Assembly (NCBI GenBank): GCA_031763025.1
Contig: JASSKH010000005.1
Location: forward strand, 14,784,128 to 14,848,127
Length of the DNA stretch: 64,000 nucleotides
Direction: 5' to 3'
Origin: Macrocystis pyrifera
Taxonomy: Eukaryota; Sar; Phaeophyceae; Laminariales; Laminariaceae
Part shown: in pieces, positions 8,347 to 52,276 of the stretch
Numbering within the stretch: the first letter of the stretch is position 1
Layout: each line of letters starts with the position of its first letter
Notes under the pieces: model-generated
The model's database searches: none
Told to the model about the DNA's origin: nothing
Seen by the model: the letters and a program-made list of their open reading frames with translations, nothing else
Made by a program: the position numbers and the translations under genes

Positions 8347-8367
8347 TCAATTGCTGTGAGCGTCAAC
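8347..8367 (-). CDS. probable last exon
   Basis: Acceptor TATTTCACAG is followed by six codons (VDAHSN) and TGA, read in phase 0 as the preceding exon requires. The intron would be only 77 bp, unlike all others. If it is not spliced, the discoidin frame simply reads on for about 40 more codons to a stop near 8,322. Both ends keep the domain intact. Confidence 0.45.
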   Translation of the reverse strand, partial: VDAHSN

Positions 8368-11300
8368 CTGTGAAATAGTGTGTCTGGAATTATACGCACG
8401 CAAACATGTATGTTAACGAGTTGTTTTCTGCTCCCAGCACCCACCTCGGTGATGCTCAGCCAATCCGAGTCAGACATGGAGTCGTCGAGGCAAAGCGAGA
8501 GTTCAGCCGTTTCGTCCGAGTTGAGGGCAAACTCCTCGTAGCCGTTCGTCGAGCCGCTGGACTCAATCTGGCTGAAGAATTCACCGTTATTGTACACGTT
8601 CAGAGTGCGGGTTCTCTCCGCTCCCTTGTGGAAAGCGATGTTCAAGTCGACGATGTCCTGAGGCTCGTCGAAGAAGTATTCAATGCAGCACCCCCCGTCC
8701 CCTTTGACGAGGTCACCTTTGCACGACCAGCGCGAGTTCGCGTCGAGGCTGTCGTCTCGAGTGTTTTCGGGTGTGCAGCCGTCCGGACTGCAGCCAGAAC
8801 CGGCCGTCCTCTCATCGAAGGCAACGGCCTCAACTGTTACGGTTGTCCGCTCGGAGGCATCGACGAGGGCTAGGGTGGAGTAGGCCGGCGAGGTTGTATG
8901 CGACGGGCAACAAGCATGCACGATGGGATAATCGAAACCCACATGTTAGTGTTTGGGTTTGTTGGTATAGGCGTCATACGTACAGTGTCAGCTCTTGAGT
9001 AGTTGAGGCTTTGGTGATGCTCTCGAACTGTACTGGAAAGGTATTGCGTGCACACAACACACCCGCTCGGTGATCGAACATAATCGGGCAATACACTCAA
9101 TCGTCGACCTCCTGTCCACCCCATCAATTCCAAGCAACAATTACGCTATACAAATAGGGAGGTGCCTTCAACCACTAAAGAATGCTAGAGGACTTGCAAC
9201 GCTACTGCAGTCGACGCTTCGTATATATTTTCACTTTGTCTCCCGAAATCCTCTCGGTGACACGACACCAACACAGCGGTCGTACCAATGATAAAAGTAG
9301 TCCCACATTTTCGTTTTTTCTTTTGTGGTGTTCTGGAACAGCCCCGACAAATGCTGGGGAACCTCGGAAGCTAACTTGATACCAAGGTCGCACGATAGAA
9401 AAACATCGGTGCAACTATAATGTATGGTGTCCTTCCTCAAAAAAAAAATTATAAATTAATTTGCTCACACTGTATCGCTCAAGTGATCAATAAATTATTC
9501 CGCACCACTAGCCCTTGTTACCACGTCAACCATTCAAGTAGTGCTTTTGGGGTTTCTTGTATATCTCTGTCGAGATCGAGCCGGAGCCATAAAAACAAAA
9601 GGTTTGCACCTGCTGCATTTATGCACTATTCGGCCAGGGTCAGTCCGTCCAGCGAATATTGCGTCTATCGCTCACCTGAGGACGCGCACTCGAACGCCCT
9701 GATCACCTCGGAGGAAGACCCGACTGCGAAGGTAAATAAAAGCGCACAGGAAGATTATGGTTATTATAGCGATCGCAAGGTTCGGCCGAAACGTTTTTAA
9801 GACTGACCGGAGCTCCTCAGCTGAACAGCTAACCTTGTCCCTCCCGGTTACATCGTACGGTAATTTTCATTAGCACCTACGATACGTGTGCCGTGTGGGG
9901 TTGTTCAGTTAAGCCGACGTATTTTTTCAATCTTACTTTTTGGTTAAAAGCTATGTTGGAGCTCTTCAAGCGAGGAGCCCCACAAAAAGTACGTGCTACT
10001 ATTTCAGGACTGCAGTCCCGTTGCGGGGACAGACCAATATTTCACGTCTCGACGTGTCACAGCGGACATACTCACAGAGAAGATCGGCATATTTTAATGG
10101 CTCGAACAAGTGTGTGTTTGTAGCAGCACCGTTGTCTCTCCTCCCCATGACAGTCAATCTTCGGAAGGGAAGGTACTACTACACTAACCTCCGGTCATCT
10201 GATGACGCTTTGCGGTGGTGAGATCATATCGACTATGTTCGACAGCGCTCCAAACGCATTCCCCGTGCGTCTCCCCGTACGGTTCGATACGCATCCGCTT
10301 CGTTGCTCTCTGCCTGAGGAATGTTTTTGCACCCTCGCTTGGTGACGGTTTCGGATACCGGTCACACCACTACTTGGTTTTTGGGCAAATGCGGCACCAG
10401 GCACAAACAAACAAACGTCGACGACGTTTGTCGACAACATTCATTGCCGTATTGCGGCGCGTGCCCGCATTGATTCTCGGACTACTGCATGTCTCTTGCC
10501 GTATTTATCGTGCATCCCATCCTAGGCTAGCCTACAGCAGTAGTGTGCATATACTGGAGTGCGAAGTATGTTATGAAGTATGATGCGAAAAGCGCGGTCG
10601 ATCCTGCCACCCGCGGGAAAGAGGACAAACATGACACATGTACCACTGCTGTTAGGACACAGGTGGGGATGCCTTTTTGGCGAAGAATTCGGTAGGAAAC
10701 ACATCTGGCCCTTCGGTGAAAACATTCACATGTTGACATTTTGTGACGCACCGCAGCTGTAGCCGTCGGTGCCAGGCTGGCATTCGCAAGCATTGCCGTC
10801 CTCGTCGCATGTGGAGAACGCCGGGCACTCTGCGCAGTATTGGCAACAACACAACAACGAGGCGGGCGATAAAGGCAAACAATAGACTCGCCGAATATAC
10901 GGGTGGGGGCTGTTAACGTCGAGTTCTACATGTTCGTGCATCGGGACGATTGTTGTGCGCTTTACCCGCTCTGCGAAGCATGGCCCATGTCCCAGTCCGA
11001 CATTCATCGAGTGGCCTTTGATCTACTGGCACTGAGTCTTAAACCGAGGATGGCGGTGGTTCTGAAGCAAACCGAGCTGAGGCTCTAGAGGCCGAGTCGA
11101 AAATCGCGTGCGGTGTTCCTCCGAGCATGAATCGACGCGCGAAAGAATTTTCTACATGGCATGGCGTCCGGTCCACGTCGGCACAAACCCGTTCGTGCTG
11201 GAGTTTTGATCCCTGCCTTGTGCCGAGCTGATAGAGGTGTCTAGTTTCAAACCTTGGTACCGTAACGGGATGGATTTTTAGTCTAAAAACAAAATAAAGT

Positions 11301-14300
11301 AGGCCACAAGGCCTTCGTCGAAATTCGCGCGTACAAGCTACATCTAACAAAAAAACAATCTCGTTTGCTACGGGTTGAATGTACATACAGATGAAACCGT
11401 GAATGTGACATGCATCGGGGGCTCCCGCGGGGTGATAGCACCAGCTGTTAACCGGACGATTCTCTTCATACGGATGGCCATCAATCGTTCTGTGCGCGAA
11501 GCGTTGAGCTCTCGGTGATTGGGACAAACAAATCAGACGGCAGTAGGGGCTCATTTGGGGCTGTTGTACCAACACACAGGGTGTTCTTCATGGCTTACCG
11601 CATGTTGCATCCGCGTCCAACAGCGGACCCACGTTTACGTTGTCAGATCTGCAGTTTTCCCCGGAAGGGATGATGCCAAAACACAGGGTGTGGGTCGGCG
11701 TTTAGTTCAGCGCGTCATCAACAGTTGTTCCTTAAGCAAGGTTGACAGGCCCGGAATTCAAGCCGAGGAGAATCCAACGAACATAGGAGTTTTGATCAGG
11801 TTGGAGAGTGCTATTTACCTGGTGGTAGGAGACCAAACCCCGACGTCGTATTTTGCAGTTCATATGCGAACGTTAACCTACGCACGCGTCGGCAGGGACA
11901 ACACCTATTTTGCATGAGGTTCCTCGCAAGACAAAAAAGTACAATCCCACGAGTATAGCTAATCTTTAGACACAGGAGTGGTGCTCCTTATAGTGCCGGT
12001 ATGATGTGCGCCCACCAACAACACCAGAACTATAGCGGGCGATCGGCACTATCCCTCGCAGTGCCGTACGGTTTAATTCCCTCTGTGCCAAGCGATTTCA
12101 ACGGGGCTACAGCGGGCAGCCGGCACTACTCAATCGACACTACAGAGGGATTTCTACTACTGTATCGAACCTACTCTTGCGTAGAACGTACACCCCGACC
12201 AAAGAGTAGTGGACACGCCTGAGGTGAGGAGCTCCTGCTGCTAGAGACGTTTCGGCTGAAAGGTGCGACGACCCCTAACGTAGCTCGGCTGAACGGACAA
12301 ACGCTGCTAACGCCGTGGACGAAAACACGCTGGCTTGAGGTGCGGCAAGGTGTGGTGCAGCCCTGACGCATTCATAACAGCCACTTTAAACAAGTCATAC
12401 CTAGTATACATAACGAATCCGATGGACCACTACACCCCCAGAGTGCGTACGAAGTGAGCCACGGGCGGCTCAGAAAGGCTTCTACACATCGAACACGCTA
12501 TTGGCTAGGTCATCTACAATAGATCCCAACCTGCCGTTGAGGGATGTTGTATCAGGCAGAGCATACATGGCACCGATCGGGTACTGCAGTATGTGCTAGA
12601 CCACGCAGATTTTACGACTCAATACAGGCGACATGACCTACTCTACGCTATAAAGGATCAGGTAATGTTCTTCCCTGAATGATCTTGATAACAAAGTGGG
12701 GCCCAGTGATCTGTGCGGGACGTAAAAGGTTCCAAAGCCCCCAGACATCGCCAGGCACCATCTTACCGTTGTTAGGTGTTACGGCCGCAGTCGAATAACA
12801 TTATTCACGAGTGTCCAAACCACAGGCGACTCACTCTCCACGACATTTTCTCTTACATGGCAGGTATGCATTGTAGACCTTCGTTCTCGCTCAGCGACCT
12901 GGAGAAGGCGGTAGAAACCGACCATCGCACGTCGGATACGTGAGTGATTACAAGCATGTGATATCAGACACACAATACCACATTATATTTACATAGCATG
13001 ACATCTACACAGTGTGGAAGAAAAAACAGATAGATAGCGTATGCGCACCCCGTCTTGTCAATCTTCGGAATGTCCCTAGCGTAAGCGTCGGGAGGGCTTG
13101 TTCGGATCTACCGCTGTAAACCTCAATCCGGACATGGACTGCTGTACAATACACATTTTCAGCGTCTATATTCAAATTGTTGTGAGGCGGACTCAGTCGA
13201 CGGCACTCTTTCTGAAGACCTCTACTTCGTCATAATTAACGCGTTCGCGCAAACCTGTCTACGGCGAATTGACCAGAGCAAACATCCGAGCACTCCTACG
13301 GTTGAGTGTAGCATTACTGTCCATACGTAGTGGACCACTACTGCCCACTGGTGCTAGGGTATGATGGCGTAAGTTCCACCACCGCGTTAACGCCACTTGG
13401 GCGAGTTTTACGCCACTCGAGCAAGTGACTCTGCACCTCACTCAACCTGGTAGCGGGAGGTTTTCGGTTGAGAAACTGGCTGTTTCCCGTACAAACAAGT
13501 GTCATATCAAACTTCTTCCCTGTCGTGTCCGAAGAAAAGCACGGAAGAGGCCCAGCTACATTACCCCCCGAAACATTGCGGCTCTTGAGCGCACGTTCTT
13601 TATTGCCTCGTTTGGAGACCCGTATCCGCGCCAGCAGTAGCTGATAGAGGGCCCTAGCGGTATGGCCGCAGCTGCTTCTGACGCGTGTGGTGCGATGGAG
13701 GTTGCAACTAAGAGTAACACCTGGTTTTTCTGAGGCCTCCTCGCTTTGGAACCCCCTATTCCTTGACCAAAACAGACCCCGAGAAAAAAGTGTAGGCCTG
13801 CCCCGATGGACAACCCCATGGCCTATGATATGAGTCTATCTACTACAATTCTGCAAACACAAATGGCATACGATATTATACGATATACCTCGTATCATGC
13901 TTGATGACATAATAGGATAGGATATGATATGATACGATAATAGATGCCGTGATACGGTATGATATGGTATGGTATGACATGATATTACACCTAATGAACA
14001 TGATACGATATCAGGTAGTTACTCCGTTGAGGAGGGTCCGCCGCCCAGAAACGTGTTAGCCACAAATTGCTATGTATTTACCCCTGGCATGGCAGGCACG
14101 CATGGCACATCCGCATTGTGCGCCAAAACTGAGGGGTGCCACGTAACGACACAGCAGTGGGCTTGGTCGTACCACTCTACGTATCGAATCAAATAAAAAT
14201 CAACACAACATCGATGAGGTTTCATGCACTCGCGGTGCTCACGGGTGGGTGCCACCGCAACAATGCACTCACAGTGTCTCCAGAGATTGAAGTCCATCGA

Positions 14301-17300
14301 ACAACCCCGCCGGCAGGATGGTGAGTTTGTTTCTGAAAATGTGCCTGGTTGTGTAAAGAGGACAAGCAAACGATACATCACGGCTTCAGTCGTTACCTCC
14401 TATTACGAGGGCCCATAGTAAATAGGACCTACGGTACACACAAAAAATCTCTGTATTTTACTATTGATATGTCTTCTAACAATATTTGGTCCTATTTACT
14501 ATGGTCCCCCGTAATATCGGATAGTCAGGGTTAAAATTTTAGGATGTGATGCGGATTTGGTAGAATGATTGCCACGATATAAAAGAAATGGAGATATTCC
14601 ACTGTATTTACTACGAGTGTTTGGTCCTGGTTAGTATGCCTCCCGGTAATATGGGTAGTTCCTACATTTTCTGACCGCTTATCGTGTGAGGCTTTACCTC
14701 ACCAAAGACTGACCATTGAGTAAATTGAGCAATATAGCGCCCCATGTTTGAAGCGGGCAGCACAATAAAAAAAAGGCATTTCAAGGATGAGCCGCCCGCG
14801 AGCGAGAAATACTGGGACCAAGCAGACAATGCTACCCCATCGTACACTATATGGGATGCTACAGTGTTCAAGTTGCTCGCGTCGACGAGAAGGCCATCGT
14901 CGGGAGTCGAGTACCGTTGTGGGAGCTTTGGCGCAATGGTTTTGGGAGCCTCGCGTGCAGGTGAAGGAAGTCTTCCATATCTATAGGAGCTTACGCTGGG
15001 TGTTTGGGCGGCCCACTTTACGGACAGACGGTCTTCGAGATGGTAAAAAATGTGTTGGAGTGTGAGTTTAGTCGCAGTGCACTGGTGGTTTTACACGCGT
15101 GTCACCTACAGCACTCACAGGAACCTCAAGGAAGACATGTCGTCGAAGATGTCCGTTGGGAGGGTGGCGATGTCGTTGTCCAAAATTGTCCTGAATTGCG
15201 TATTGGGTTCGCCGTGAAGGCACGTACGCGTAGACGCACCAGAAAGCAGGATGCAGGAATTGTTTGTACAGTGCAACACCCTCGATAAAAATGACGACTA
15301 TCAAGTACGTAAATCATTTCGTAACGGCAATTGCAAGATCAGGGACTCTGTCTAACCTCACCTTTGCAAACCGAGTGGGACACGTCGATCGCGCGTGCTG
15401 CAGGTTTTATATGATCTCATGAAGGATGCTTAGTGGTTATTGAGGGGGGGAAACTTGACAACTGAACGACTCACGGAGTGTATACATATCATACGTAGGT
15501 AGCGTTACCATTCAGGGGTGTAAGTACATACTCGAGAAAGAACAGAAGGTTCAACGAAAAACAGGCATAATATATATACTGAGATCTGCGTATCTGGGTG
15601 CAAAAAACATTTACACTGCCGTAATTTGGTGGGAGTCGTTAGGATGAATATGATAAATACGAAGTTCTAGCTGAATAAAACGCTATGGTGTGGGAACCTC
15701 GAACTGTTTCAACGTGTGACGAGAGAAGGAGGTTAGTTTGAACATTTGGATTCCGCCTGTCTTCCTACAAGCAGACGCCACCACAGCAGTCCACACATCG
15801 CCCGTCAATCGTGCTCGACACTGCACCTCAATAATGCGTAGGAGAACAGTTAGTAAGTGCCTGCTGTCTTGGCGGAAAAATGTTGATTAAGCTATCATAC
15901 GACAATCAATGGCAGCGTTGCGTTTCAAGTGATGTGGTATGGCCATTGATGGGCCCATCGTTTACAACAGCATTAAAACAGCAAATGTATCTCCACGTTA
16001 GCTATTTCTGCGTTGTAGAGTTGGAGCTACCGGTCCTTCGAGGTGAATGTGCCAATGTTGCTTGAAGTACGGCACTCACACAATGTTCATAAGCGTCAGA
16101 CCCCTGAACAGCTCAGCAGGTAGGGCCGTGAGGTGGTTGTCCGTAAGCTCCCTGCGCGGTCAACGTAGTAAGGTAACATGCATTGACACTCTGTCCTGGC
16201 GTTGGTATCCCCGGTGTGGGATCGCAATAAGAGAGGAGAGAGGACATTGTAATGTTTTATTATTCGCAGATCGTACCAATACCATCGCGGGCAGTTATCT
16301 TCCAACCATCAGCTACCACTGGCTCGCGTGCGTACGTACTCAATCGTGTGCAGTCAGATCATAGACGACACCAGCAAATTCGTCGCCTCACAAAGAATCT
16401 CGCGGCACAAATACCTGTCGAAAGGACTCCCGTTGGCTGGTTGGGAAGGCAATGTCCGAGGCGATGGACTTGGCAGGCTAGGGCTAGGTGAATCTCGAGC
16501 TGTGCTGCGACAAGGCTATCACCTCTTTTTCGAGGCACTTCATTCAAGGAGCACGGAAACAGCTAAACGCTGTCCAGGATACACGAAAATGTAAAGATTC
16601 CGAGGACGCTCTATTGTCTGCTCAGCGAGCGAGTCTTTTCAAGTATTACTAATAGTTCGGTCCACTTCCCCAAATTTATCACCATTATTTCATGCGCGTT
16701 ATCTCACAGCTCTCTCAGGACCGGCGTGTTTTCGAAGAGGCTGCCCGGCAGAGAGGTGATCGCATTGTCGGCCAGTTCCCTGATCCACACGCAATATTCG
16801 CGACCAAGGCGTTGGAGAGGATGCACGCTAGTTAATATATATACTACTACATCGGTGCGGGGATTGACTCAACACCTATCGGTTTCAGAGAAGGTACCGG
16901 TTTGACAAAGGTACAATAGCTTGGGAAAGTCATACTAAATATATATTTTATCGCGTTCCGGTTTCAGATAGGTTCGGTTTCAACCGTTATAGTACCGCAG
17001 TCCCGTTTTGTTGGGACAAACCACTCCAAATACATGTAGCTCATCCCCAGAATGGGACTGCAGTCTAAAAAGGGTTAAGAGAGGTCATACAAAAACAGAT
17101 CTGGCACACACGCCCATGTCTCAAACCCGGACCCCCACTACTGTAGCTAGCCGTTTGTACGATTGGCGATGAGACAGTGAAAACAGTATACGATGCTGGG
17201 CCACCAGTGTACGCTCTGCTTGAATGCACCCCGTTATTTGGAAAAACAGCGGACAACGACGACCAATCGGATATGCCCGCTTGTGATCTGCCAAGCAAGG

Positions 17301-29300: not shown

Positions 29301-32300
29301 GTCATGACATTGTCTCCGAGGTCCCTGGTGCACAAAGGTTGGACGGTTCGGGAACGAAGTCAAGGACAAATTCTCGTAGATGCGCCTTAAACAGAAACAC
29401 CCCCATTTCGGACTTCAACCGCGTTTTTGAGGACAAACTACCTGGATGATCGGAAAGGCTAAAGCGGAACTTGTGCCAAGGTTAAGTGGAATCACTGCAA
29501 CGTTTATATATGTAACGAGCGAGCGGTTCGAGTGGAATTTCTCAAAGGCTCACTCTAGAGGGAATGCCTGACAATAGTTGTTTTTCTAGAGGCGAATGTT
29601 GTCAACCGCGTGACACGGCAAAGAAGGTGTAGACAACACACGCCACTATTACGGGGGACCATATTAAATAGGACCAAAAGGTGTTGGTAAAAATAGGGAA
29701 ATATATAGGTTTTAAGTTTACCATAGGTCCTATTTACTATGGCTCCCCGTAATATCTCGTGCCACGATACAACGAGCCATTTCTGGCAAAATAAACGGCA
29801 GGACGGAACAAATACGCCCCGTCGCCATGCCCTATAGATAGCTGTTTCGTTTTGCCGCCATCGTTAAAAGTATCAATTTAGGCTGTTACCTATGTGGATC
29901 AGATTTTGAGCTTCAGATATCCGCTGAGAATATTTTCAACTGTGAAGTTTGCAAACTCGAAACAGTCTTCCTGTGAGGTGCAATCAGATTTATTGTGCTC
30001 ACAGAGATTAGAGCAAACGCCGAAACAACTTCCGTTGCTGTGGTCTGGTGCCGAGAAGAGACGCGCCGAGTGCGCTGCACTGGACGTCCGACTCACACGC
30101 CCCATCCCACGCCGACTGCCTCTGCTCCGGCGGCGAAAAGATGCGCCGAGCGTGCTCGAGCGAACTCGCCTTGATATTTTGAATATCTTGGACATACTGA
30201 AGCATACGAGCCTAGCACGCTGACTGATTGCTGCTGCTGCTGCTGCTAGTGCTGTTGTAGTCTATGAGTACTTATCCACGAAGAGGTGCGTGCCGAGTGC
30301 GCTTTTCTTGGTATCTAGGCCCGAGTCCGCGAGAGTCTACTGTATGTAGTCTGGCCGCGGAAACACGAGGCGATCGCCGATTGAGCGTCGGGCGCGACGT
30401 AGGTACACAGCAGTGTCGAAATACAACTCATCGATCGTTCTGCTGCTGCTTGATTGCGTGGAAAACATTTTGAAAATAGAAAACATTCCGTTCGACTCGA
30501 AAAATCAAATGGCCCAAGTCGTCGGATTTTGCGCCAAAACTATGTGCCAAAACCTGACGTCTTGGGTCATCGGGTCCACATATCGAGATATTTCCCGTCC
30601 AAATTTGCAAATACATTCGGACTGCATAGGCAGAAGCTTCCATTTCTGGGATCGAAAAATACAAATCTAAAACTCGGAATCGAAGCGCATAGGAAGCAGC
30701 CTTACAGCGGTGAGACGTTTTGTTTTTCCAGATCGTGATGTGAATAAATACCAAGGAGTTGGGAGTTGACTGGAAGTAGCTCAAGAGTTGACTGGCGAAG
30801 AAAAACGCTCTGACTTACACTATTGCGGGGGTCCATAGTTAACGGGACCAAATTTGTTAGTAAAAATATATAAATATATAGGTTTCTATGTATACCATAG
30901 GTCCTGTTAACCATGTACCCCCGTAATAGTTGCCTTTATCAGCATAGTAAGCATACAGTTGCCCAGCCACGTCAGAGGCAAAAACACAGATTTCCGCAAG
31001 TTGCAGCGAAACTACCAGGCACATCATCTCCGAATAGTGATGCACAACCGAGATTCAAATCTGAAAATAAAAAATAAAAAAACTAACTTCCAGCACGGCG
31101 TGTGTTTCTCGGTCCAGTTACAACCCTAGCGCATCAACTGAAAATGGTTTGGTTTCAGTGGCCTTCACAGCTCAGCCGGAGATGGAAGACCGTCGAAGCC
31201 GTGCATTCAGCTAACGTGTTGATTCAAATATAGAAATCTCAGTTGCTTCCAATATGCTTCCAAATAACCTACTCAAGGTATGCAGCGATACGTATCTATC
31301 CTTATGATATCTAAACTCCAGCTGCAGCGGGTTGGTTTAGGGGCACTCACAGCTCTGTAAGAGATGGCAGCCCTTCCAAGCTCTCGGCAGACATGGTAGT
31401 AAAAGCATTGAAGGTAAGATCCCTGAATGTAGTAACGATGAACAGACGGGGCGGGCACGGGCCAACAGATGGTAGGGTTTGAGGAGCGGCATTGTCTCGA
31501 AACCACGAGTAGCTCAACTTGACAGGTAGGTGACGCCACTACAGCGTTTGCGGGATGATGTTGCTGAGAATCGCGGGCACTGTGCCCGCTCGCCCCCTCT
31601 TGGCGAGTTCAGTATATCAATATGGACCACAAAATGTTGTGTGTCCGACGACTTCCGTCAGATAAACTAACGCATGACGCGCAAACATATTATTCTATTG
31701 AGTTAATGCCGAAGAAAAACCTGCGTGACGAGTAAATCGAAGTATGATTGATCACCTGTCGACATGCGAAAGCCATATACATCGCGTGAGTTCCCTCTGG
31801 ATACAAGCTGCTTTGCTTTCCAACGCGGAACATACCCCTCTCCCCCACAGTAGTAGGCCATCAAGCAGCGGGGAAACAATATGCCGGTGACGTGAAGGAA
31901 GTAGGGCGGAATGTTCAGCCTGGCATATCTCTACAGGTGCCATCTCAGCGTCCACTTACAGTTCGAGTAGGGATGTTAGGCCTTCGAAGACACCAGCCGA
32001 TAGGACCTCCATACCGTTCCCTTGCAAGTTCCTATAGAAGCATCACGGAAGCGAGGGAGTTCGTATAGAGAGGGAGGGCGTGGTTGGGACATGGTGCGAT
32101 AGGCATGCATCCATGGTAGACCTAATGCCAGGCGAAATTACATACACCTTGGGACGAATTTGGAAGGCGTGTTTCTCCAGAACGAGTGAGGCACACAAAC
32201 CGAAGATGGGGGGGGGCTTGGAACGATCAACTAGTCCGAAATAATCGAGATATTTCCATAGATGAAGCGCTCGGTAAATGCACTCTTCCGTCCAGCTGTC

Positions 32301-35300
32301 CAGAGATCTGTCTCGAAAATCATCCCTGGGGGGTGTTTTCGCTTGCGTGATATACGGGTACCTGGTGTACGTGTCAAGCCTGAGAGGGTGTGTTATATCG
32401 AGTGAGGTACGGTGCCCGACTTATCACACGGTAGGGGTTGCACTCTGTTTGCCTTCTGGGACAGTGTTTCATGACTGGTTGAGCCCCCTAAGTGAGCATC
32501 TATAAGCACACTGGTCACCATGACTCTGTACCAAAAGCAATTCTTCTATAACTGGATGGAGTATAAAAGTTTTGGTCGGGGTTGCTCAAAAAGCACACGT
32601 TCGTCGAAGTCAGGATTCGGGATGAATTATTTTGAGCTCCTCGTGCGGGGAGTATGAGCTCATAGAATAATAAGCCACCACCCCCACCGTGGCATTGCTC
32701 ACCAGGTACATTATGAGCCCAAGGGGGTGTCTCAGCTTGCGTGCTATACGTGTACCTGGTACTACGCTGGGCGTTAATGGAAGTAACGTTGGGTCTTCAT
32801 ATTACTGTGTGAACGATCCTTATAATTCCGACCAGAGTGGTGCGGTCTAAAACTCCCCGCTTGAGGACCTCAGTATTTCCCACCCAAGAAACCCATTTTT
32901 TTTTCGAAAAAGTTGTATTGCACGCTGATCCCGGAGAACTACCGCTGGCCTAGATATGTACCGAGAGTATGAAAGAAACCACGAATGGGCGTGCGCGGGT
33001 GAACAGACCCGTCAGCTAGAAAAACATATTGGTGAGCGACATGTGACAGCAATGAGTATGGCATGCCGTCCCAGCCATTATGTACAAAACTATTTTTTAG
33101 GGCTCGTGGCCCAGTCGGTGTTTCTCAGATAACCGGATATTCTTACGACGGGAAAAAACGTTTTATGCCGTGGTTTCTCGGACAAAACAAGAAATGAAAT
33201 ACAACGACATCGGAAACCACTGTGAATCGTGCAAGTATGTACAATTGCCCGGGATTTTAGTAACATCGTCTACTGCTGCAAGTTGCTGTTCTACGCGATG
33301 GTTGTTTCCAGGGACGAAAACACATGGCCAGAAACAAAGTGCTGCAACTATGTTGTGCGCCTTCAAGGAGGGAATTAACTAGTATCCTGGAGTTTTTTTC
33401 GAAACGTACAATCCTACGGGAAACAATCCACTGAACGCTTCGCTCACAGCATTTCCACGGATGTAGCACCCTCGAAGTTACCGGGCTCGAGTGTAAGGGC
33501 GTTGCCTGAGAGAACCCTGCGGTACAGTGGCAGAGGCGGACATGTGTGAGACAACGTCGAACATAATTTCGTCGCACGGAGGCCAATTCATAAGCACATC
33601 CCAATACATACCATGAAGCGTCCGGACAGCAGAACATGAAAAACAGACATCTGGACGAGCGTGTATCGTGGTGCCAAACCCAACCTCCGACGTGTGTAAT
33701 ATGCTGGAGCAAGGAACCTGCTACGTTTGTGATACTGCGAGATGGTCGATAAGGGTCTACGGTGATGTGAGGTTTTATATTGTGAGACGAGGGGTTATTT
33801 TCCTGGGATGTTCCCGAACACGTCTTTACGTACAGCGGCTGGCCTACCCACCGTGGGTAGTCTACGATTGTAGGGATGAGAGAAATGTATGCCAGCGGTC
33901 GATAGTGATATTGAGAAGACAAGGAGCTTTCATGACCAGGATACGGTTTCGTGCATGAGCCCATGCATGTGTGCATGGATTGCGAGTGGTTGTCTGGAAG
34001 TTCGTGATATAAGACCCCTGCTCTAACCTCTCTGGTCATCTTGACAAGAAGGTGCTAAGCGACGTACAGTGACACGTTACACTGCATCTACATGGTACAA
34101 ACACGCTCAAACCGTCGAGCAGCGTCGGGGGACTTTCCGGCACTGCACGTACCTCATACTCACTCACAATATTCATATCCTCATACTTCGCAAAAACATC
34201 GCAGTATCTTCAAGTCTACCACGAGGGACATAGTCACAACGTTTGGCTGGTAGCGTCCCGCTGACAGAAAACCAAACACACAACACGATGCGTATCGTAG
34301 TAGGTAAAGAAACGTTGCACAACGAGCCGTGGGATACCATTCCGACCACCTTGCAAAGAACCAAATACCAGAATCAACACCCGTGACACGTCACGCGCCA
34401 ACAAAAAAAAAGGAGTAGTACGACGGAACATTCGGTCCTCCCTCACGCGTACAGCTAATAGCGCCAAACCCATACAACCAGCATGGACAATGCCGGTCAA
34501 TATGTCGAGCCGTGTGTACTCTGACAGATTCGAGCGTCGTCCCAGCCGTATCGGCAACGTTTAAACTGATGGGTCAAAGCCGTAATGAAGGCGCTTGAAA
34601 GGCGAAGTCATGTGTTGAGTACATCAACCTGAAAACCGGTCGCCATTGAGAAGACTCTAGATCTCGCGTACCCGCCAAGCGGGCGTTTGCCTCGCTGTGC
34701 TGCACGACGCAGGGTACCCATTGAACCACGGCCACCCACGCTCGCGCGGGTCAAACATATACAGCGGTCACATTTAGGTAAGGAGAAACATCGCTGGGGT
34801 GAAGGTCGAACGCTGTCGTGTTTCTACTGGCGCCATCTGAGGGTTCACTCACAGGTTCTGAAGAGACGTCAGACCTTCGAAGGCAGCAGTTGGCAGGGAC
34901 TCCAAGTTGTTGTCGTCCAATTCTCTGAAACAAATGTATCGCCACCCCAGTCAAGGAACATCAGAAATGAAGTCGTGGAGAGGGGGAGGGGGGGGGGGTG
35001 GTAAAAAGAGGAGACTTGTATTCCGCCACAGTCATACGTACAAGACGATTGATATAGCTTGGTTGAGACTGATTCTTAGAGGACCACTCAATGACGAATA
35101 ATAACTGGCTCGTTTTCCGGATTTATATGCTGAAGCTATGTCGAAAAGGAACCACCCAAAACTAATCGTGCACGCACAATCGCCTGGCCTCCTATTTATA
35201 AAATATCAGGTCGCCGTAAACAATTCTGCAAGAAGATAACCACTCGGCTGGCTGGACCCCCGGGTAGGGCGTAGGGCACAAACGACCCTCTGGGCCGTTT

Positions 35301-38300
35301 TCCGTATTGTTCGTAGGAGCCCTGATGATAGAATCCTGAATTATTTTTCATGGAGCGGTAGTTGAGGAATTAGTAGTCGAGTGTTGCGCTCATCTACTCA
35401 ATGAGTGATGGGCAGAATGCACTGCTCGTTCCGCCGTAGCACCGCATGTTGCTAGAGCCTATGCTATCATACCCCCTCAGCGACTTGGTACACGGTACTG
35501 GCCATCGCTGGCTACCTACTACTGTAACGCGCAACACGAGTCGGATAACATGCTTGCACCATTAACACCTCTTGGCACTTAAGAGGGGAAAGTTGACGAT
35601 TGCGGCTACGGCCATTGTGCGCTTGGGGGTTGAGACAAATCGGCGTACGAGCTACAGTCTGTGAAAGGGACCGTGCGGTATGAGAGGCAACAAGATCCTA
35701 CCTGTCCGTCGTGTTGGGCGATCACGCTACTCGCAGGCGGTTGTCCACCATAGTTTCGGTCGCTATGTCGGTATCCCAAAGGGGTTAAACAGGCCAAAAA
35801 CACTCCACACTGCGTCCTGTGAAAAGCTTACGGCTTGTGTCGCTGCTTCGCTTACAGTCTTTCCACAGCTGTACCACCCTTGAAGTTTCCAGACTGCAGG
35901 ACAAGGTTGTTTTGACGGACGTCCCTGTGGCGCCGCGCGAGAAGAAGACATTTGTGAGACAATCGCGTGGCTTTTCAAACGGAAGGTACAGTACTGTGGT
36001 TCAGATGTGCACGAGATGGCATCAAAATATTCTTGCAGAATAGGACGCAACAGGGACCAGACGACCAGACAGGCATAATGTTGCAGTCTGGCACAAGGAA
36101 TCCGCTGAAAACGTCGAACTACCCCGGAACGTACTTCGTTTCTGCAAGAACCTCGAAATTCGAAGCAGCCCCGGAATGGTTGTGTAAGCGTACTTCGAAG
36201 CAGCAACACAATTTCTTCGGAGCTAGGACGTGGTCACGAAACCTGCGTAGCATCTTGGTAAAGACAACCAAACACAACACATTACATACCGCAGTAGATA
36301 CAACACATACAGCGTGGAGTATGCCACTGTCCTACAGGCCGCGGCAGACCATCCCCGCACCACTCGCAACGAATGCCCATTTCACAGACGAAACACGTTA
36401 CACCCCAAACGCAGATATGAGTGCGAGGTCACACAGAGAATTTCATCAACGGATGCCGAGACTCTCGGGCACGAGGTTACTGTTTACGGGTTCTCCTATC
36501 CCCAGCAGGTGGACACACGACACTACGGCAAAGCAAAAAAAACTAATCAGGGGCCGAAACAAAGTGAAAATCAAACGCTAAGGAGAACTAATTAGAGTAG
36601 GTGACGCAGCACTCGTAAACGCACGAGCTAAACGATAAACACGTATAGGTTTGGTTCCACTCACAAGATCAGGAGTGTATCAAACCCATCCAAGAAATCG
36701 AGCGGTAGGGTCGTGATCTCGTTGTTGAACAAAGTGCTGGAGCAGCGCAATGGCCGTTGTAAAGACGCGAGTTGACAGCAAACGGCACGATACTTAGCGG
36801 AATGTTCACAGTGAATGCTTCTCGAACGTACAGGGCAGTGGGTTGGATCTGGTCGCATCGCATGGCGAACACACCTCTGGTCGAGCTCATCGTCCTAACG
36901 AAAGCATGCCTCGAGCCCAGTATCGTCTATAGACTCGCCGCCTCGTGCATCCATGGGTATGACACCAGGTATAGCATTGCACCTCCTTTTCCTAACCAGA
37001 TACACATTGTACACCATTCAGCCCTCCTTTTTTCAAGGCCGAACTCGATGTCAGATTGCTACGCGTATTGTGACACGATCGAATCCATGTAGTAGGCGCG
37101 TGCTACGGTAGGGGTGGGCGGCAATGTGAGTTATGTTGGGTAATATTTTTAATGAAGAAACGGTCCTTATATTCCCGACTAGAGTGGTATTCTAAAGCTC
37201 CTCAATTCAGGAGCTCCGTGTATATCATTCAACCATCTAGCCATCTTCGAGATAATTATAAGACAAGCTCGATACACAACTTACAAGTGGGTGAGGTATC
37301 TACAGCAACGACTACTACTATTAATAGCATGGGTGAAATACGCGCAACATCCAAAATATCGGGTAACACACGCAAAATCCCAAACATTGGTAGCTCCTTG
37401 CATTCAACAGCTCCGTCCGTGATCTAGCTATTTATGGCTAAACGGTGGCATCCTTCTAGTAGCACGAGGGAGCGATATTTATCACGGAGAAAGAAACGCG
37501 GTGTCTTCCTCCGTTTCGCGCCTTTGCTGAAAAGTTGCTTGGAAGCAGTGTGTGAAAGGAATTATTTTGGATGGAATTTTTGCTATCGGACAGTGTGCAG
37601 CAGCGTGGGCTTCAACGCTGTGATCACTCATACAAACGACGAGAAAATAACAAAAGGGTTACAAGGGAAACCACAGCAGTAGAAGTGGAAACGAACGTGG
37701 AGTAAGTCTACAATTTGTGCTGTAGTTGCTCTTGGGATGTATGGCACTCCCACGGGGTACGTAGCGATACTCACATCTGTTGGATGCTGCTTCGACCGAT
37801 ATTATCGAAGCATGCAATGAGATCGGGCATGTCTGCGTCAGTGATCCCACAGCTGGGAGTGGACCTGCAACGTAAGCATGTCGAGAGCGTACAATACCCA
37901 TCATTGGCTCGCATCATTACCAGGAAACACACATCATTGGATAGCATCATACTGGACGTACTGTAGTCATGCCTACTGCAGTTGGACAAGTGAATCAACA
38001 CACACGATTGGACGACACCGTTCGATCGATAGAACGCGTAACACCTAGTTAAACGCATGCACAACATACAGGGTTGTATGATATCGGTGACGGGTGCCAT
38101 GCCAAGACAGGTGGAGAAACAAAGGCGACGAGGGATGGAAAGCTGCTCGTTCAAACTGCAGTATTCCGCTCTTAAATCAAAGTTCGCCAAACGAACAGGT
38201 TGACATTTGTTTTTTTCTTCGCAATCGGAAACCACGTGCGATTAGTCGAAATAGGCGGGCGGCAACAGCGCGAGGATGCTCTCTGGTCCTCCGCCAAAGC

Positions 38301-40513
38301 GTACCATGACCCAGCATTCACACGTCTACACTACTGTTCAACTAGATCAGCAAAGGTCGATGGCTAGGTTTGTATGTACAACCGAAAATCGGATTTCCAT
38401 TGTATTTAGTTCGTCCAGGCTATGCTTGGCGTTAGAGCAGTGGGGCTTCTGGATGGGGGGTGTACTCGATACTCGATATCATGCATGGCTGTAGTCGTAT
38501 GACCATAGACCCTTGCATCCCGTCAATGGCGGAACGGAGCACGTCGAATTTTCACCGACCGCAGTCATTACTTGCGGCAAGCGCGAAGAGCTGCAAGGTG
38601 TTCGGCGAGTCGCATGAAGGGCGAGCTGTACCCTACTAATAAACGCTTGTGAGGCGGACTTGCGTATGGAGGACAGCGTCAATGAGTTTTTTTTTAATTC
38701 CCGGTGCGGCAAGTTCCACAGACAGCAGCGGGAGTACTACGTCGGCAAGTTCCAGAGACAACAGCGGGAGTACTATGTGACTGCCTCTTGACTGCCTCGC
38801 CGCAAACGTTAAGATATACAATAATTCACCTTGAGCGGAGCAAAGGTTCTCCACCAGACACAAATGATCCAACTCGATCGCCAGTTGTGACCGACCAAAA
38901 AAGAAAAAAGAAAACGGTCCCCTGATTGTCCAGCTCAAGTAGTGAGCGCCATGTTACTCAGTGTCGTTGCCAACCGTCGCCAACCCAAACAACACATAGT
39001 ACACAGGGCGGGGTGGGGTTTTTTAAGCAACCGAGCTCGTGATCGGGAACTGCGCATGTCGAAGCGGACAGAGGGAACACCTGTTCCACGACCTCGTCAA
39101 ATCCACGAGTTAGGTCGCCCCGAGATCAACAAGTGCTTCAGACACCACCCGTAGCGCTGGCATCAAGCTTTGTAGGAACGCAACAGACGCAGATAACCCA
39201 GTCTATTCGGTGTCGCCGATATGAAAGCAGGAGAAGCAGGCGAATCATGCCATACAGCGGCAACAGATACTCGACATTTTCGACCGCTGCAGTCAATCAA
39301 CCGTCCAAGTAGTAGACCCGCGCAACCTCGCTCTTGCGCATTAGCCTGCCCTCTTCTCTTGAGTCAGTCCGAAAAACCTTCCCCAACCAATGCAACATTT
39401 TATGGCCGTGTAGGAAACACTCTCTTGGTCTATTCCTCATGCATGGCATGTATACTTGCGTTCTTCGTGACGAATGCGCTAGTGGCTTCAGATCCAAGCG
39501 CAGACCCACCACGCGGTACTTGAGCTACTTCGGCTATAGTCTTGAAGGCCGCGTCAGATACCCACTACGTAGGGGTGGCCCAGTGTCTATGTTTTTGGTA
39601 TACATACCTGAGTCTCCAGACTTACGAGAACCAGATGATTTGCGTACGAAATTATATTCAAGTGCGAATATCATCGATCGCCTCGTCTGGGACAAGGTTT
39701 AAGCGTTTAAAACCGGGCTAGTACCGTAATGACGAGCGCTCGTCACGTAACTGCCCGCCTGCGACACGTCGAACATACCTCACTGTTTCATGTCGGCGGT
39801 GCTGTATTTGATGGCGTTGAAACAATAATACGCATATTCAACCGCGTACGTGCCGTCAACCCTAAGACTTGCTGTACAGGGCTGTTGCACCACCTCCGCC
39901 TGCCATCCAACTCGTACTCAGCTACACCCAACACGAAGTGCATACAAAGTTTTCATTAGACTCTATAGCTATCACTTACAGGGCGTTAGCTCCAGGGGTG
40001 CACGCGTTGCCTGACAGGCATGAGTTGAGACCTGTGCCGACGATAGGCGAGGAAGAGGTGGCCACGTGCAAATAAAATTCCATGAAGACAATGGCGTCTA
40101 AACAAGGTGTGTAATACTCTGTACCAGTTCAAAATCCAACGGACATATTTAATCTAGCGGAAGTGTTCGTTGCACGTGCATGGCTTCAGGGGTTTGGCAA
40201 CCTAAGGCCTCTTCACGGCTTCCTCTCACGTACGGTACTGACTGTCTGTGTTCACGGGAACTACACTGCTCTTCGCAGCAATCTCACGTCGAGATGACTT
40301 ATCTCTGAGCTAGCACGAGGAGAATAGCACGCCAACAGAACACATCAAAATACGCGTGGCGAATCGCTTTCCCCGTCCTTGATGCTCGAAGTCGCACACA
40401 AACACATGAACGTGGGGTATTGTATAGCCAGTTTATACTATACCAGAATGGTACTCACCATCAGCAGTGGCCACGACCAAAAGTAGTGGTCCTAGTAGCC
40501 TGGTGAGCCACAT
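8347..40513 (-). CDS. secreted LRR-EGF-discoidin-like protein, ~28 exons (whole gene)
   Basis: This is a hand-built split gene in which each exon is listed separately. Twenty-six introns run from 427 to 2,115 bp and the last is 77 bp. Donors are mostly GTGAGT, with some GTAAGT, GTGGGT or close variants. Phases chain correctly throughout: signal exon exit 1, linker 1 to 2, N-cap and all LRR cassettes 2 to 2, C-cap 2 to 2 then 2 to 1, EGF 1 to 1, discoidin 1 to 0, last exon 0. Leaving out frameshifted LRR16, the exons add up to 2,178 nt, or 725 residues. Signal peptide is residues 1-18, LRR solenoid about 66-521, Cys-rich cap and EGF about 535-577, discoidin-like domain about 578-719. No membrane anchor or kinase follows, so secretion is inferred. 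The likely role is extracellular protein or glycan recognition. That is inferred from the domains; ligand and partners are unknown. Published work on Ectocarpus describes one-exon-per-LRR organisation in LRR-ROCO and NB-ARC-TPR genes; this gene has the same exon logic with a different frame of domains. Confidence 0.8.
8445..8869 (-). CDS. discoidin / F5-8-type-C-like domain exon
   Basis: A 425-bp exon (acceptor CCCTAG, donor GTGGGT, phase 1 in and 0 out) encoding about 142 residues. The sequence has the galactose-binding-like hallmarks: NTRDDSLDANSRWSC near the start, then CCIEYFFDEPQDIVDLNIAF, a KGAERTRTLNVYNNG strand pair, and a LSLCLDD…DWLSITE end. Paired Cys residues suit an extracellular domain. 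F5/8-type-C domains usually bind glycans, lipids or proteins; here that is an inference. It is the longest exon and the C-terminal module of the protein. An antisense 155-codon ORF over it (8,406-8,873, +) is a shadow. Confidence 0.85.
10752..10829 (-). CDS. EGF-like exon
   Basis: A 78-bp exon, phase 1 to 1, acceptor CTGCGCAG, donor GTGCGT. It encodes ECPAFSTC followed by CDEDGNACECQPGTDGYSC, with the C-x-C and G-x-x-G-x-x-C spacing of the second half of an EGF module. The first Cys of the module (DATC) is supplied by the exon upstream. Its symmetric phase makes it a movable module. It links the LRR solenoid to the discoidin-like domain. Confidence 0.8.
11599..11648 (-). CDS. LRR C-cap exon, second part
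   Basis: A 50-bp exon with acceptor AAACTGCAG and donor GTAAGC. It is the only exon that turns phase 2 into phase 1, just what is needed between the LRR block and the EGF exon. It encodes SDNVNVGPLLDADATC and completes the Ile codon begun by the previous exon. Support is splice signals, phase and smooth joining rather than family similarity. Confidence 0.65.
12857..12898 (-). CDS. LRR C-cap exon, first part
   Basis: A 42-bp exon, phase 2 to 2, acceptor TTCTCCAG, donor GTAAGA. It encodes SLSENEGLQCIPA, i.e. the L-x-x-N-x-x-L-x-C-I-P form of a final half repeat with its capping Cys. The reading frame meets a stop straight after the donor, so the intron is needed. Confidence 0.7.
13860..14010. 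repeat. degenerate GATAT/GATAC repeat
   Basis: An irregular run of ATGATATGATACGATA-like pentamer and decamer units inside the intron between LRR20 and the C-cap. Simple-sequence DNA. Confidence 0.75.
14273..14344 (-). CDS. LRR cassette 20 (last full repeat)
   Basis: A 72-bp exon, phase 2 to 2, acceptor AACCAG, donor GTGAGT. Core HIFRNKLTILPAGLFDGL. A second possible acceptor (TTTTCAG) lies 12 nt further in and would give a shorter in-frame exon of 60 bp. Confidence 0.85.
14403..14514. mobile_element. TA-flanked palindromic MITE, copy 2
   Basis: Left end TTACGAGGGCCCATAGTAAA, right end the near-complement TTTACTATGGTCCCCCGTAA. TA lies on both sides (14,401-14,402 and 14,515-14,516). It sits in the intron between LRR19 and LRR20. 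A worn right-end-like piece follows at about 14,606-14,650. Confidence 0.88.
15119..15190 (-). CDS. LRR cassette 19
   Basis: A 72-bp exon, phase 2 to 2, acceptor AATTCAG, donor GTGAGT. Core ILDNDIATLPTDIFDDMSSL. All scaffold Leu, Asn and Phe positions are kept. Confidence 0.9.
16080..16151 (-). CDS. LRR cassette 18
   Basis: A 72-bp exon, phase 2 to 2, acceptor CGCGCAG, donor GTGAGT. Core ELTDNHLTALPAELFRGL. Confidence 0.9.
16708..16779 (-). CDS. LRR cassette 17
   Basis: A 72-bp exon, phase 2 to 2, acceptor GATCAG, donor GTGAGA (weaker than its neighbours). Core ELADNAITSLPGSLFENTP. The TPVL ending resembles that of cassette 16. Confidence 0.88.
16994..17064. repeat. 71-bp fold-back element
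   Basis: Ends ACCGCAGTCCC and GGGACTGCAGT are inverted repeats. A related left half (ACTGCAGTCCCGTTGCGGGGA) lies at about 10,009-10,029 in another intron. Probably a small MITE. Confidence 0.55.
18040..18112 (-). pseudogene. LRR cassette 16, frameshifted
   Basis: A cassette with intact acceptor (AAAACAG) and donor (GTGAGT), but 73 bp long instead of 72. The first part reads FLNGNALTTLPANY. A run of four T then shifts the frame, and in the next frame the usual tail FQATPVLET is visible. Included, it would throw the whole downstream protein out of frame; skipped, the frame is kept because neighbours are phase 2 to 2. It is either a sequencing or assembly slip in the T-run or a freshly dead cassette that must be spliced out. 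Confidence 0.8.
18903..18974 (-). CDS. LRR cassette 15
   Basis: A 72-bp exon, phase 2 to 2, acceptor TTGCCAG, donor GTGAGT. Core VENNELTYLPEDLFNGTP. Confidence 0.9.
19328..19394. repeat. 67-bp fold-back element
   Basis: AGACCGGACAGAT at the left and ATCTGTCCGGTCT at the right are perfect 13-bp inverted repeats around an AT-rich centre that is itself partly palindromic. Intronic; single copy seen. Confidence 0.7.
19802..19873 (-). CDS. LRR cassette 14
   Basis: A 72-bp exon, phase 2 to 2, acceptor TACCGCAG, donor GTGAGT. Core ILDDNKLTTLPSGFLDGL. A Leu takes the place of the usual Phe, as in cassette 1. Confidence 0.9.
20698..20769 (-). CDS. LRR cassette 13
   Basis: A 72-bp exon, phase 2 to 2, acceptor CATGCAG, donor GTAAGT. 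Core WLDRNELVSLPAGLLKRNP. Confidence 0.88.
21486..21557 (-). CDS. LRR cassette 12
   Basis: A 72-bp exon, phase 2 to 2, acceptor AAACCAG, donor GTGGGT. Core FLSANKFVTLPEDTFDDL. Confidence 0.88.
23395..23506. repeat. 60-bp tandem duplication
   Basis: The block CTTGGTGCCAACCAAGCC…GCTATCGCTAAAAA…GTATTT…ACCAATG occurs twice at an exact 60-bp step, with about five differences. Each copy holds the small palindrome CTTGGTGCCAACCAAG. Intronic. Confidence 0.88.
23596..23667 (-). CDS. LRR cassette 11
   Basis: A 72-bp exon, phase 2 to 2, acceptor CGACGCAG, donor GTGAGT. Core ELEENCLTTLPDGIFKGP. It carries an unpaired Cys next to the conserved Asn. Confidence 0.9.
25232..25303 (-). CDS. LRR cassette 10
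   Basis: A 72-bp exon, phase 2 to 2, acceptor CACGCAG, donor GTGAGT. Core DLDSNQLEVLPANIFDGL. It is the closest to the general repeat consensus and served as the template for finding the others. Confidence 0.93.
27012..27083 (-). CDS. LRR cassette 9
   Basis: A 72-bp exon, phase 2 to 2, acceptor GGAACAG, donor GTGAGT. Core RLASNNFVTLPADLFQGM. Confidence 0.9.
27795..27945. repeat. ~86-bp tandem duplication
   Basis: Two diverged copies of a block with GGTCACGTCAAACCCGGAACG and GGCGACACGCATCT, offset by about 86 bp. Intronic, between LRR8 and LRR9. Confidence 0.75.
28617..28691 (-). CDS. LRR cassette 8 (75 bp)
   Basis: A 75-bp exon, phase 2 to 2, acceptor GATGCAG, donor GTGAGT. Core HLDSNEFTTLTADAFDGV followed by an extra Gly near the end. 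It is one residue longer than the usual unit, and its Pro is replaced by Thr. The frame is kept. Confidence 0.88.
29253..29324 (-). CDS. LRR cassette 7
   Basis: A 72-bp exon, phase 2 to 2, acceptor GCACCAG, donor GTGAGT. Core DLGDNVMTTLEPRTFAGLP. Confidence 0.9.
29649..29752. mobile_element. TA-flanked palindromic MITE, copy 3
   Basis: Left end TTACGGGGGACCATATTAAA, right end TTTACTATGGCTCCCCGTAA. TA on both sides (29,647-29,648 and 29,753-29,754). In the intron between LRR6 and LRR7. Confidence 0.9.
30823..30926. mobile_element. TA-flanked palindromic MITE, copy 4
   Basis: Left end TTGCGGGGGTCCATAGTTAA, right end with TACCCCCGTAA. TA on both sides. In the same intron as copy 3, in the same orientation. 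The paired change TTAACGGGACC/GGTCCTGTTAA in both arms shows a compensated variant of the family. Confidence 0.88.
31169..31237 (-). pseudogene. relic LRR cassette between LRR6 and LRR7
   Basis: A 69-bp stretch with LRR features on the same strand. It starts FLYLNQHVS, has a TGA, then MHGFDGLPSPAEL, close to the GLPSLTEL end of LRR6. Its donor-like site is weak (GTGAAG) and its acceptor poor (CTGAG). I read it as a decayed duplicate now part of the intron. Confidence 0.6.
31351..31422 (-). CDS. LRR cassette 6
   Basis: A 72-bp exon, phase 2 to 2, acceptor CATTCAG, donor GTGAGT. Core DLTFNAFTTMSAESLEGLP. Its sequence is nearest to the relic cassette just downstream. Confidence 0.88.
31960..32031 (-). 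CDS. LRR cassette 5
   Basis: A 72-bp exon, phase 2 to 2, acceptor TTCTATAG, donor GTAAGT. Core NLQGNGMEVLSAGVFEGL. Confidence 0.88.
33448..33516 (-). CDS. LRR cassette 4 (69-bp subtype)
   Basis: A 69-bp exon, phase 2 to 2, acceptor ACCGCAG, donor GTGAGC. Core VLSGNALTLEPGNFEGA. It shares the short form and the GNFxG motif with cassette 2. A 260-codon minus-strand ORF across it is in another frame and is spurious. Confidence 0.85.
34853..34924 (-). CDS. LRR cassette 3
   Basis: A 72-bp exon, phase 2 to 2, acceptor TTTCAG, donor GTGAGT. Core ELDDNNLESLPTAAFEGL. Confidence 0.9.
35856..35924 (-). CDS. LRR cassette 2 (69-bp subtype)
   Basis: A 69-bp exon, phase 2 to 2, acceptor GCCACAG, donor GTAAGC. 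Core DVRQNNLVLQSGNFKGG. It is the sister of cassette 4, from which it is separated by one ordinary cassette. Confidence 0.85.
36665..36736 (-). CDS. LRR cassette 1
   Basis: A 72-bp exon, phase 2 to 2, acceptor GCTCCAG, donor GTGAGT. Core TLFNNEITTLPLDFLDGF. It joins the N-cap through an Ile codon split by the intron. Confidence 0.9.
37775..37864 (-). CDS. LRR N-terminal cap exon
   Basis: A 90-bp exon, phase 2 to 2, acceptor CGTTGCAG, donor GTGAGT. It encodes STPSCGITDADMPDLIACFD and a short tail, with two Cys and an amphipathic helix, as expected of the cap before the first LRR. Confidence 0.8.
38455..39000 (-). repeat. dispersed ~0.53-kb repeat, copy B
   Basis: The reverse complement of this stretch matches 2,925-3,450 along its length. 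It differs in carrying an internal ~46-bp box twice (38,703-38,780, CGGCAAGTTCCACAGACAGC-type units) where copy A has it once. It lies in the intron between the linker and N-cap exons. Confidence 0.7.
39980..40031 (-). CDS. linker exon after the signal peptide
   Basis: A 52-bp exon, acceptor GGCACAG, donor GTAAGT, phase 1 in and 2 out, the only phase change that can link the signal exon to the N-cap. It encodes LNSCLSGNACTPGANA. Support is phase and splice sites; the sequence itself is short. Confidence 0.65.
40459..40513 (-). CDS. signal-peptide exon (start codon)
   Basis: ATG opens MWLTRLLGPLLLVVATADG: a charged N end, a Leu/Val core and a small-residue cleavage region (ATA). A GTGAGT donor follows in phase 1. 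It is the first exon of the gene and sends the product into the secretory pathway. An overlapping 73-codon ORF (40,492-40,713, -) is in another frame and has no partner. No clear promoter element was recognised upstream. Confidence 0.75.

Positions 40514-42548: not shown

Positions 42549-42983
<435 letters not shown>

Positions 42984-52183: not shown

Positions 52184-52276
<93 letters not shown>
52184..52276. repeat. 93-nt poly-C tract
   Basis: An unbroken C run except for one G at 52,240. Poly-Pro and poly-Gly ORFs over it are artefacts. Such a tract can form i-motif/G-quadruplex structures and is prone to assembly error. Confidence 0.97.

Follow-up and report, generated by a model that had tools for sequence, protein, structure and literature searches.

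What might a brown alga gain from a protein in which each leucine-rich repeat (LRR) has an exon of its own, and which ends in a domain resembling the carbohydrate-binding modules of family 32 (CBM32)? The question is raised by a gene on the minus strand of a stretch of 64,000 nucleotides from Macrocystis pyrifera (GenBank assembly GCA_031763025.1, contig JASSKH010000005.1, positions 14,784,128 to 14,848,127), which we call the window throughout. On balance we hold it probable that the product is a secreted, wall-associated recognition protein with a CBM32-like tail, encoded by a member of a gene family at least ten strong. The LRR horseshoe would bind variable, probably non-self, partners, while the tail would anchor the protein in the wall of the alga itself by way of a uronic-acid polysaccharide (alginate being the likeliest, perhaps at its cut ends), thereby placing the repeats where attackers open the wall; the exon cassettes, symmetric in phase 2, would allow repeats to be lost or skipped without breakage of the frame.

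It is the CBM32-like nature of the tail that would point to a polysaccharide of the alga's own wall. The best match of the tail profile is the CBM32 of the alginate lyase AlyQ (E 8e-10; entries 7d29, 7d2a and 5xnr), over positions 27-144, and this match, together with a discoidin fold, places the domain among CBM32-like, or discoidin-like, modules. The Asp of the calcium site is shared, as are, in the window copy, the Arg and the Trp of the AlyQ uronic-acid site (Arg248 and Trp303, AlyQ numbering). The algal domain differs from that of AlyQ in being borne by an LRR protein and not a lyase, in extra Cys residues, and in that the two site residues are not present in all copies: at these positions an alignment of 32 rows has R in 19, and W in 26 with F in 6, and both Arg and Trp are kept in only two of ten LRR-type genes. 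A bacterial origin of the domain found no support in a weak search with two patterns only, none of the 31 pattern stretches being confirmed. Ahead of the tail lies an EGF-like module with six Cys, two C-x-C pairs and a terminal G-Y-S-C, its first spacing being short for the EGF pattern; Pfam returned no match for either the EGF-like or the CBM32 piece of the window gene. The start of the protein is signal-peptide-like as judged by eye, and no stretch of transmembrane strength was found after residue 25, where the highest mean hydropathy over 19 residues is 1.35 and falls within the LRR region. A Pfam scan of the 641-residue spliced model (without the cap exons) gave no ROC, COR or kinase domain.

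The gene runs over 34 kb, from 40513 to about 6783, in 27 exons that encode in succession a signal peptide, a Cys-bearing segment, an N-cap, 19 LRR, two C-cap segments, the EGF-like module, the CBM32-like domain and a short terminus. All 19 LRR exons are flanked by an AG acceptor and a GT donor (GTGAGT in 14 of them); all begin, and 18 end, in phase 2; 16 are of exactly 72 bp, the others being LRR3 (69), LRR7 (75) and LRR15 (73). Introns measure 427-2,115 bp, a former one of 2,624 bp having been divided by a C-cap exon. The exons are as follows, in the order of transcription.

40459..40513, minus strand, exon 1, ATG and signal peptide MWLTRLLGPLLLVVATAD, phase 0 to 1
39980..40031, minus strand, exon 2, GLNSCLSGNACTPGANA, phase 1 to 2, aligned with GLNSC of the homologue P0001
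37775..37864, minus strand, exon 3, LRR N-cap CGITDADMPDLIACFDNIGR, 90 bp, phase 2 to 2
36665..36736, minus strand, LRR1, 72 bp, phase 2-2
34853..34924, minus strand, LRR2, 72 bp
33448..33516, minus strand, LRR3, 69 bp
31960..32031, minus strand, LRR4, 72 bp
31351..31422, minus strand, LRR5, 72 bp, without counterpart in the L005 and L008 genes
29253..29324, minus strand, LRR6, 72 bp
28617..28691, minus strand, LRR7, 75 bp, with 75-bp counterparts in the par2, par3, L005 and L008 genes
27012..27083, minus strand, LRR8, 72 bp
25232..25303, minus strand, LRR9, 72 bp
23596..23667, minus strand, LRR10, 72 bp
21486..21557, minus strand, LRR11, 72 bp, donor GTGGGT
20698..20769, minus strand, LRR12, 72 bp
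19802..19873, minus strand, LRR13, 72 bp
18903..18974, minus strand, LRR14, 72 bp, with a counterpart in the L006 gene and none in the L005 and L008 genes
18040..18112, minus strand, LRR15, 73 bp, frame-shifting
16708..16779, minus strand, LRR16, 72 bp
16080..16151, minus strand, LRR17, 72 bp
15119..15190, minus strand, LRR18, 72 bp, same peptide as one L006 cassette
14273..14344, minus strand, LRR19, 72 bp
12857..12898, minus strand, C-cap exon 1, SLSENEGLQCIPA, 42 bp, phase 2-2, coding motif matched in the par2, L005, L008 and L006 genes
11599..11648, minus strand, C-cap exon 2, SDNVNVGPLLDADATC, 50 bp, phase 2 to 1
10752..10829, minus strand, EGF-like exon, 78 bp, phase 1-1, its six Cys including the last Cys of the cap
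8445..8869, minus strand, CBM32-like (discoidin-fold) exon, phase 1 to 0
6783..6803, minus strand (coding 6803-6786), terminal exon, VQFMVK and stop

Part of this model is owed to P0001, a homologue of 393 residues on a 1610-bp Logan contig, recovered by protein search with 69% identity over 97% of the C-terminal query. It is evidently a spliced sequence, the contig being too short for introns of the size seen in the window gene, and it consists of an N-cap, five LRR, a C-cap, an EGF-like part (EGF_laminin in Pfam, at E 0.49) and a CBM32-like part. Its comparison with the window exposed the N-cap exon at 37864-37775, the C-cap exons at 12898-12857 and 11648-11599, and the terminal exon at 6803. 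Two candidate exons were rejected on the way: a terminal one at 8367-8347 (EVDAHSN), as P0001 ends in EVQFMVE and an exon for VQFMVK is present at 6803, and a long EGF exon at 10909-10752, because the cap exon at 11648 fits the homologue. Between its EGF-like and CBM32 parts, P0001 has about 16 residues more than the window model. It probably belongs to another species, since its tail shares no more than 81.7% identity with any of the 30 loci compared. In the structural model of its whole length the LRR part is confident, and the predicted local distance difference test (pLDDT) is below 50 for 128 of the 393 residues, mostly C-terminal, for which reason the fold comparison of the tail used a model of the domain alone.

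One exon of the window gene is out of step. Without LRR15, an unbroken frame of 2106 nt precedes the stop, that is 702 codons (702 residues); with its 73 bp included the frame shifts, its splice signals being kept nonetheless. As the counterparts of LRR15 measure 72 bp in three paralogues (the L005, L008 and L006 genes), the window copy owes its length either to an error of assembly or to a true frameshift, which skipping of the exon would circumvent. The preliminary description, which had announced one-repeat exons of about 72 bp with phase 2 at both ends, and residues L, N, P and F fixed amid variable ones, is borne out by the cassettes on both counts. It had counted twenty such exons: we find 19 full ones, and the 42-bp half-repeat of the cap at 12898-12857 may be the twentieth. 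The span it had given, 8347 to 40513, holds for the start and must be extended, at the other end, to about 6783. Its chain of splice phases from signal peptide to tail holds if LRR15 is skipped, its outline having lacked the N-cap and cap exons; and of the EGF and discoidin ends it proposed, both are present, the former as an EGF-like module and the latter as a CBM32-like domain.

How well are the cassettes themselves supported? A six-frame search of the window with regular expressions for LRR motifs gave nothing useful, because the exon borders cut the repeat. A profile seeded with 14 obvious cassettes found, in six frames, 19 stretches at E <=1.1, every one of them on the minus strand, the best plus-strand stretch having E 2.6. 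When candidates were defined as segments of 63-84 bases between AG and GT, open in phase 2 and followed by a fair donor, 19 of 851 on the minus strand reached a cassette score of at least 8 bits, as did none of the 810 on the plus strand; 14 of these 19 are the seeds of the profile, so that the independent support within the window comes from the other five, and the stronger support comes from the paralogues. Rfam at gathering thresholds and a tRNA scan were both empty for the window.

The genome at hand (537,376,219 bases in 223 contigs, the window lying on the contig we label C219) yielded 150 scored matches to the tail among 194 candidates. Upstream of the ten closest full-length tail copies (69-100% identity) LRR cassettes were present in ten of ten cases, and there are at least ten LRR-CBM32 genes in this genome. 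With a threshold of 4 bits, par2, situated 36 kb away on the same strand of C219, has 11 cassettes among 396 candidates (other strand 0 of 346), and par3, on the opposite strand of that contig, 8 among 221 (0 of 209). With a profile widened by these two and a threshold of 8 bits, the L005 gene has 16 of 212 and the L008 gene 15 of 219 (other strands 0 of 239 and 0 of 223). At 10 bits, and as lower bounds for the roughly 10 kb scanned at each locus, we counted 4 of 130 for L004, 6 of 89 for L006, 4 of 130 for L007 (one of them, of 71 bp, doubtful), 5 of 119 for L009 and 5 of 104 for L010, with none on the other strands. The EGF-like module was found in nine of nine paralogues, called at 78 bp, with the border out of register in L007. 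An N-cap exon lies in the right orientation 18-38 kb upstream at nine of the ten loci, none being found for par3. A split tail copy at C218:8297820-8298637, in two overlapping pieces (80% and 75%) with an N-cap 32 kb upstream on the same strand, is possibly an eleventh gene.

Matches to the tail and to the N-cap also occur outside these ten loci. Contig C189 accounts for a hundred of the 150 scored tail copies, in the interval 11.08-13.43 Mb; in one 10-kb stretch upstream of the copy L040 none of 95 and none of 108 candidates on the two strands was an LRR cassette, and, to go by that stretch, the cluster may consist of CBM32-like proteins without LRR. The N-cap exon has 76 matches genome-wide (E up to 10, and counting that of the window), with runs on C194, C198, C207 and C216; as this far exceeds the number of LRR-CBM32 genes, many other genes for LRR ectodomains may exist.

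The cassettes appear to be old. The 16 of 72 bp in the window share on average 48.6% of their nucleotides, the best pair reaching 64%; recent tandem duplication was rejected, as neighbours (48.0%) are no more alike than others (48.7%). When each paralogue cassette was assigned its best match in the window, with 500 shuffles as a control, the order rose strictly for all 16 cassettes of L005, 15 of L008, eight of par3 and six of L006, and nine of the 11 par2 cassettes fitted an order-preserving map, two remaining unmapped; in each of these five genes no shuffle reached the observed score. The four genes with four or five cassettes scanned (L004, L007, L009 and L010) carry little weight, 12-25 of the 500 shuffles reaching their score, and in L009 and L010 the best matches do not follow the window order. 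Nothing corresponds to LRR5 and LRR14 in L005 and L008, nor to LRR10, LRR11 and LRR13-19 in par2 and par3. These comparisons indicate that a long array is common to the paralogues, which differ by missing or extra cassettes and by one large block; since the order is kept, recent shuffling is not supported. An observation apart concerns LRR18, which has the same peptide as a cassette of the L006 gene (L042, C213:1751672) at 93% nucleotide identity, their tails being at 74%: this could come from conversion or from strong constraint.

If the horseshoe meets changing partners, its concave face should bear the mark. The concave set, cassette positions 1, 3, 4, 6, 22 and 23, was fixed before any pair was counted, from general knowledge of LRR and a table of entropies rather than from a structure of the window protein. 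The counts are simple pairwise ones, in which changes within a codon are not independent, and they omit one unequal cassette pair (75/69) and the first L005 cassette, the counterpart of which falls outside the stretch. Between par2 and par3, the latter of which may be truncated, seven cassettes (161 codons) give a non-synonymous rate (dN) of 0.30 at concave positions (24.5 changes over 99 sites) and of 0.027 at the other LRR positions (7 over 261), for a synonymous rate (dS) of 0.055 in the LRR; the concave excess has p 3e-6 against all synonymous sites and p 2e-9 against the other LRR positions. Their CBM32 domains (dN 0.022, dS 0.065) appear to be under purifying selection. Between L005 and L008 (15 cassettes, 344 codons) concave dN is 0.126 against 0.036 elsewhere (3.5-fold, p 8e-5), a rate that is not above the synonymous one (p 0.81; LRR dS 0.176), and CBM32 has dN 0.028 and dS 0.089. 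Six positions drawn at random attain the concave share seen here with frequencies of 5e-5 (par2/par3) and 0.006 (L005/L008). For the window and par2, over six cassettes paired by eye (five pairs being in the order map, that of LRR4 with par2 cassette 3 not), LRR dN/dS is 0.43 (concave 0.68, rest 0.34) and that of CBM32 0.20, concave positions again not exceeding the synonymous rate. Positive selection would be supported by one pair of three. A recognition role had been proposed at the outset: the concave excess of par2/par3 and the purifying selection on CBM32 favour it indirectly, and the two other pairs, with no such excess, do not. The interchangeability of the cassettes, also proposed then, agrees with their symmetric phases and with the losses and gains between paralogues, and has to be reconciled with their conserved order and old age.

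Could the same facts describe a component of the matrix? An adhesion protein, in which the LRR would bind proteins that the alga itself has in its wall or on its surface, and the CBM32-like domain a wall sugar, is a possibility we rate as unlikely; rapid change in the LRR would then reflect relaxed constraint or self-recognition, as in mating, and not pathogens. The multi-domain secreted architecture would suit it, as would the fact that the synonymous rate is exceeded in one pair only, and related domains occur in other settings: three in tandem in Undaria P0123, one behind a subtilase-like stretch in Ascophyllum P0002 (Peptidase_S8 at 20.6 bits, just below the cut-off) and one behind a Cys-rich N-terminus in P0127. 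Against this reading stands par2/par3, where concave positions, and not the other LRR positions, exceed the synonymous rate. About equally tentative is the idea of a soluble co-receptor or decoy, derived from the LRR receptor kinases of brown algae by replacement of the kinase with the CBM32-like tail and working together with membrane LRR kinases. In P0037 of Ectocarpus fasciculatus, N-cap, LRR, C-cap and Cys-rich module of the same kind stand ahead of a kinase, and the 76 N-cap matches set against ten LRR-CBM32 loci leave room for such partners, although P0037 itself comes from another species. By eye, and with the account of these kinases given in passages of PMC3268121, the likeness extends over the signal peptide, a C-G-I-T-D N-cap, typical LRR, a CLP cap and a Cys-rich module ending in G-Y-x-C; the difference lies in the CBM32-like domain that stands in place of the kinase and in the lack of a detected transmembrane stretch. 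The ectodomain is also common, again by eye, to P0079 and P0121.

Two further explanations bear on the array itself. Transcripts might choose subsets of cassettes and so draw many receptors from one gene: symmetry holds for 18 of the 19 LRR exons, the frame is restored when LRR15 is omitted, P0001 has five repeats, and alternative splicing of LRR exons is described for Ectocarpus ROCO genes in PMC11378527. We find this improbable, P0001 being probably from another species and perhaps the product of a short gene, such as par2 with its 11 cassettes only. Still less probable is a decaying gene, in which the 73 bp of LRR15 would be a true frameshift, as its 72-bp counterparts in L005, L008 and L006 might suggest, and no full protein would be made; open frames and splice sites are kept in the 26 other exons, the CBM32 dN/dS of 0.20 with par2 speaks for a maintained product, a single-base error of assembly is possible, and omission of the exon would save the frame. 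We come back, then, to a wall-tethered recognition protein, of which a bolder version takes plant polygalacturonase-inhibiting proteins as its model. These are secreted LRR proteins of the wall that turn a variable concave face towards wall-degrading enzymes. By analogy, and this we think improbable, the tail would sit on freshly cut alginate ends while the concave face bound or inhibited a lyase or another protein of the attacker, making of the gene a sensor or inhibitor of wall breaches with an array editable in blocks; the plant proteins belong to an unrelated lineage and are not known to carry a carbohydrate-binding module, and inhibition is here hypothetical.

Gonadotrophin-type receptors of vertebrates are membrane receptors and are not known to carry a CBM32. 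Their LRR exons are of similar size and have phase-2 introns, according to Teng et al. (2024; PMC11378527), who also report brown-algal LRR-ROCO genes with one LRR per 72-bp phase-2 exon, four sites under positive selection on the concave face and alternative LRR splicing, so that the organization mentioned in the preliminary description for ROCO genes is indeed published. The window gene resembles these in its exons and departs from them in having no detected ROC-COR, in its signal peptide, caps, EGF-like module and CBM32-like tail, and in an order conserved between paralogues. The same paper mentions, in S. japonica, 15 non-ROCO sequences with such exons, most of them LRR only. In brown algae both the one-LRR exon and the ectodomain are known; for an LRR-CBM32 fusion in these algae we found no report in the open-licence literature, as seen from titles and the beginnings of abstracts, and the fusion and its family are apparently unreported.

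Some features of the window lie apart from this argument. The introns of the gene have only a repeat element in common. An element of about 110 bp, which looks like a miniature transposon, occurs in introns at 14400-14516, 29645-29754 and 30820-30930, and also in the par2, L004, L005, L006, L008 and L009 stretches. The region 59000-64000, with a G+C content of 60-68% from 60 kb on, long open reading frames on the plus strand (59087-60472, 60250-61974 and 61981-63351) without Pfam match and a 114-bp tandem repeat at 59361-59880, is possibly a retroelement. Long trinucleotide arrays and a poly-C run at 1-332, 42550-42987 and 52184-52276 are possible spots of assembly error.

What the locus may mean for the kelp is best seen from the side of its wall. 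Laminaria digitata recognizes fragments of its own alginate and answers with an oxidative burst, in a study the main text of which has 0 occurrences of the word 'receptor' (PMC3123347), and whether the LRR receptor kinases of brown algae interact with wall components was given as not known in passages of a 2021 review (PMC8307928). A protein that would join a fast-changing LRR face to the kind of domain that binds the ends of alginate makes this question directly testable, with a recombinant domain of 147 residues. Within one genome, furthermore, the family displays what would be the course of evolution of one-repeat exons: an order that is conserved, cassettes or whole blocks that are lost or gained, and replacements that focus on the concave face.
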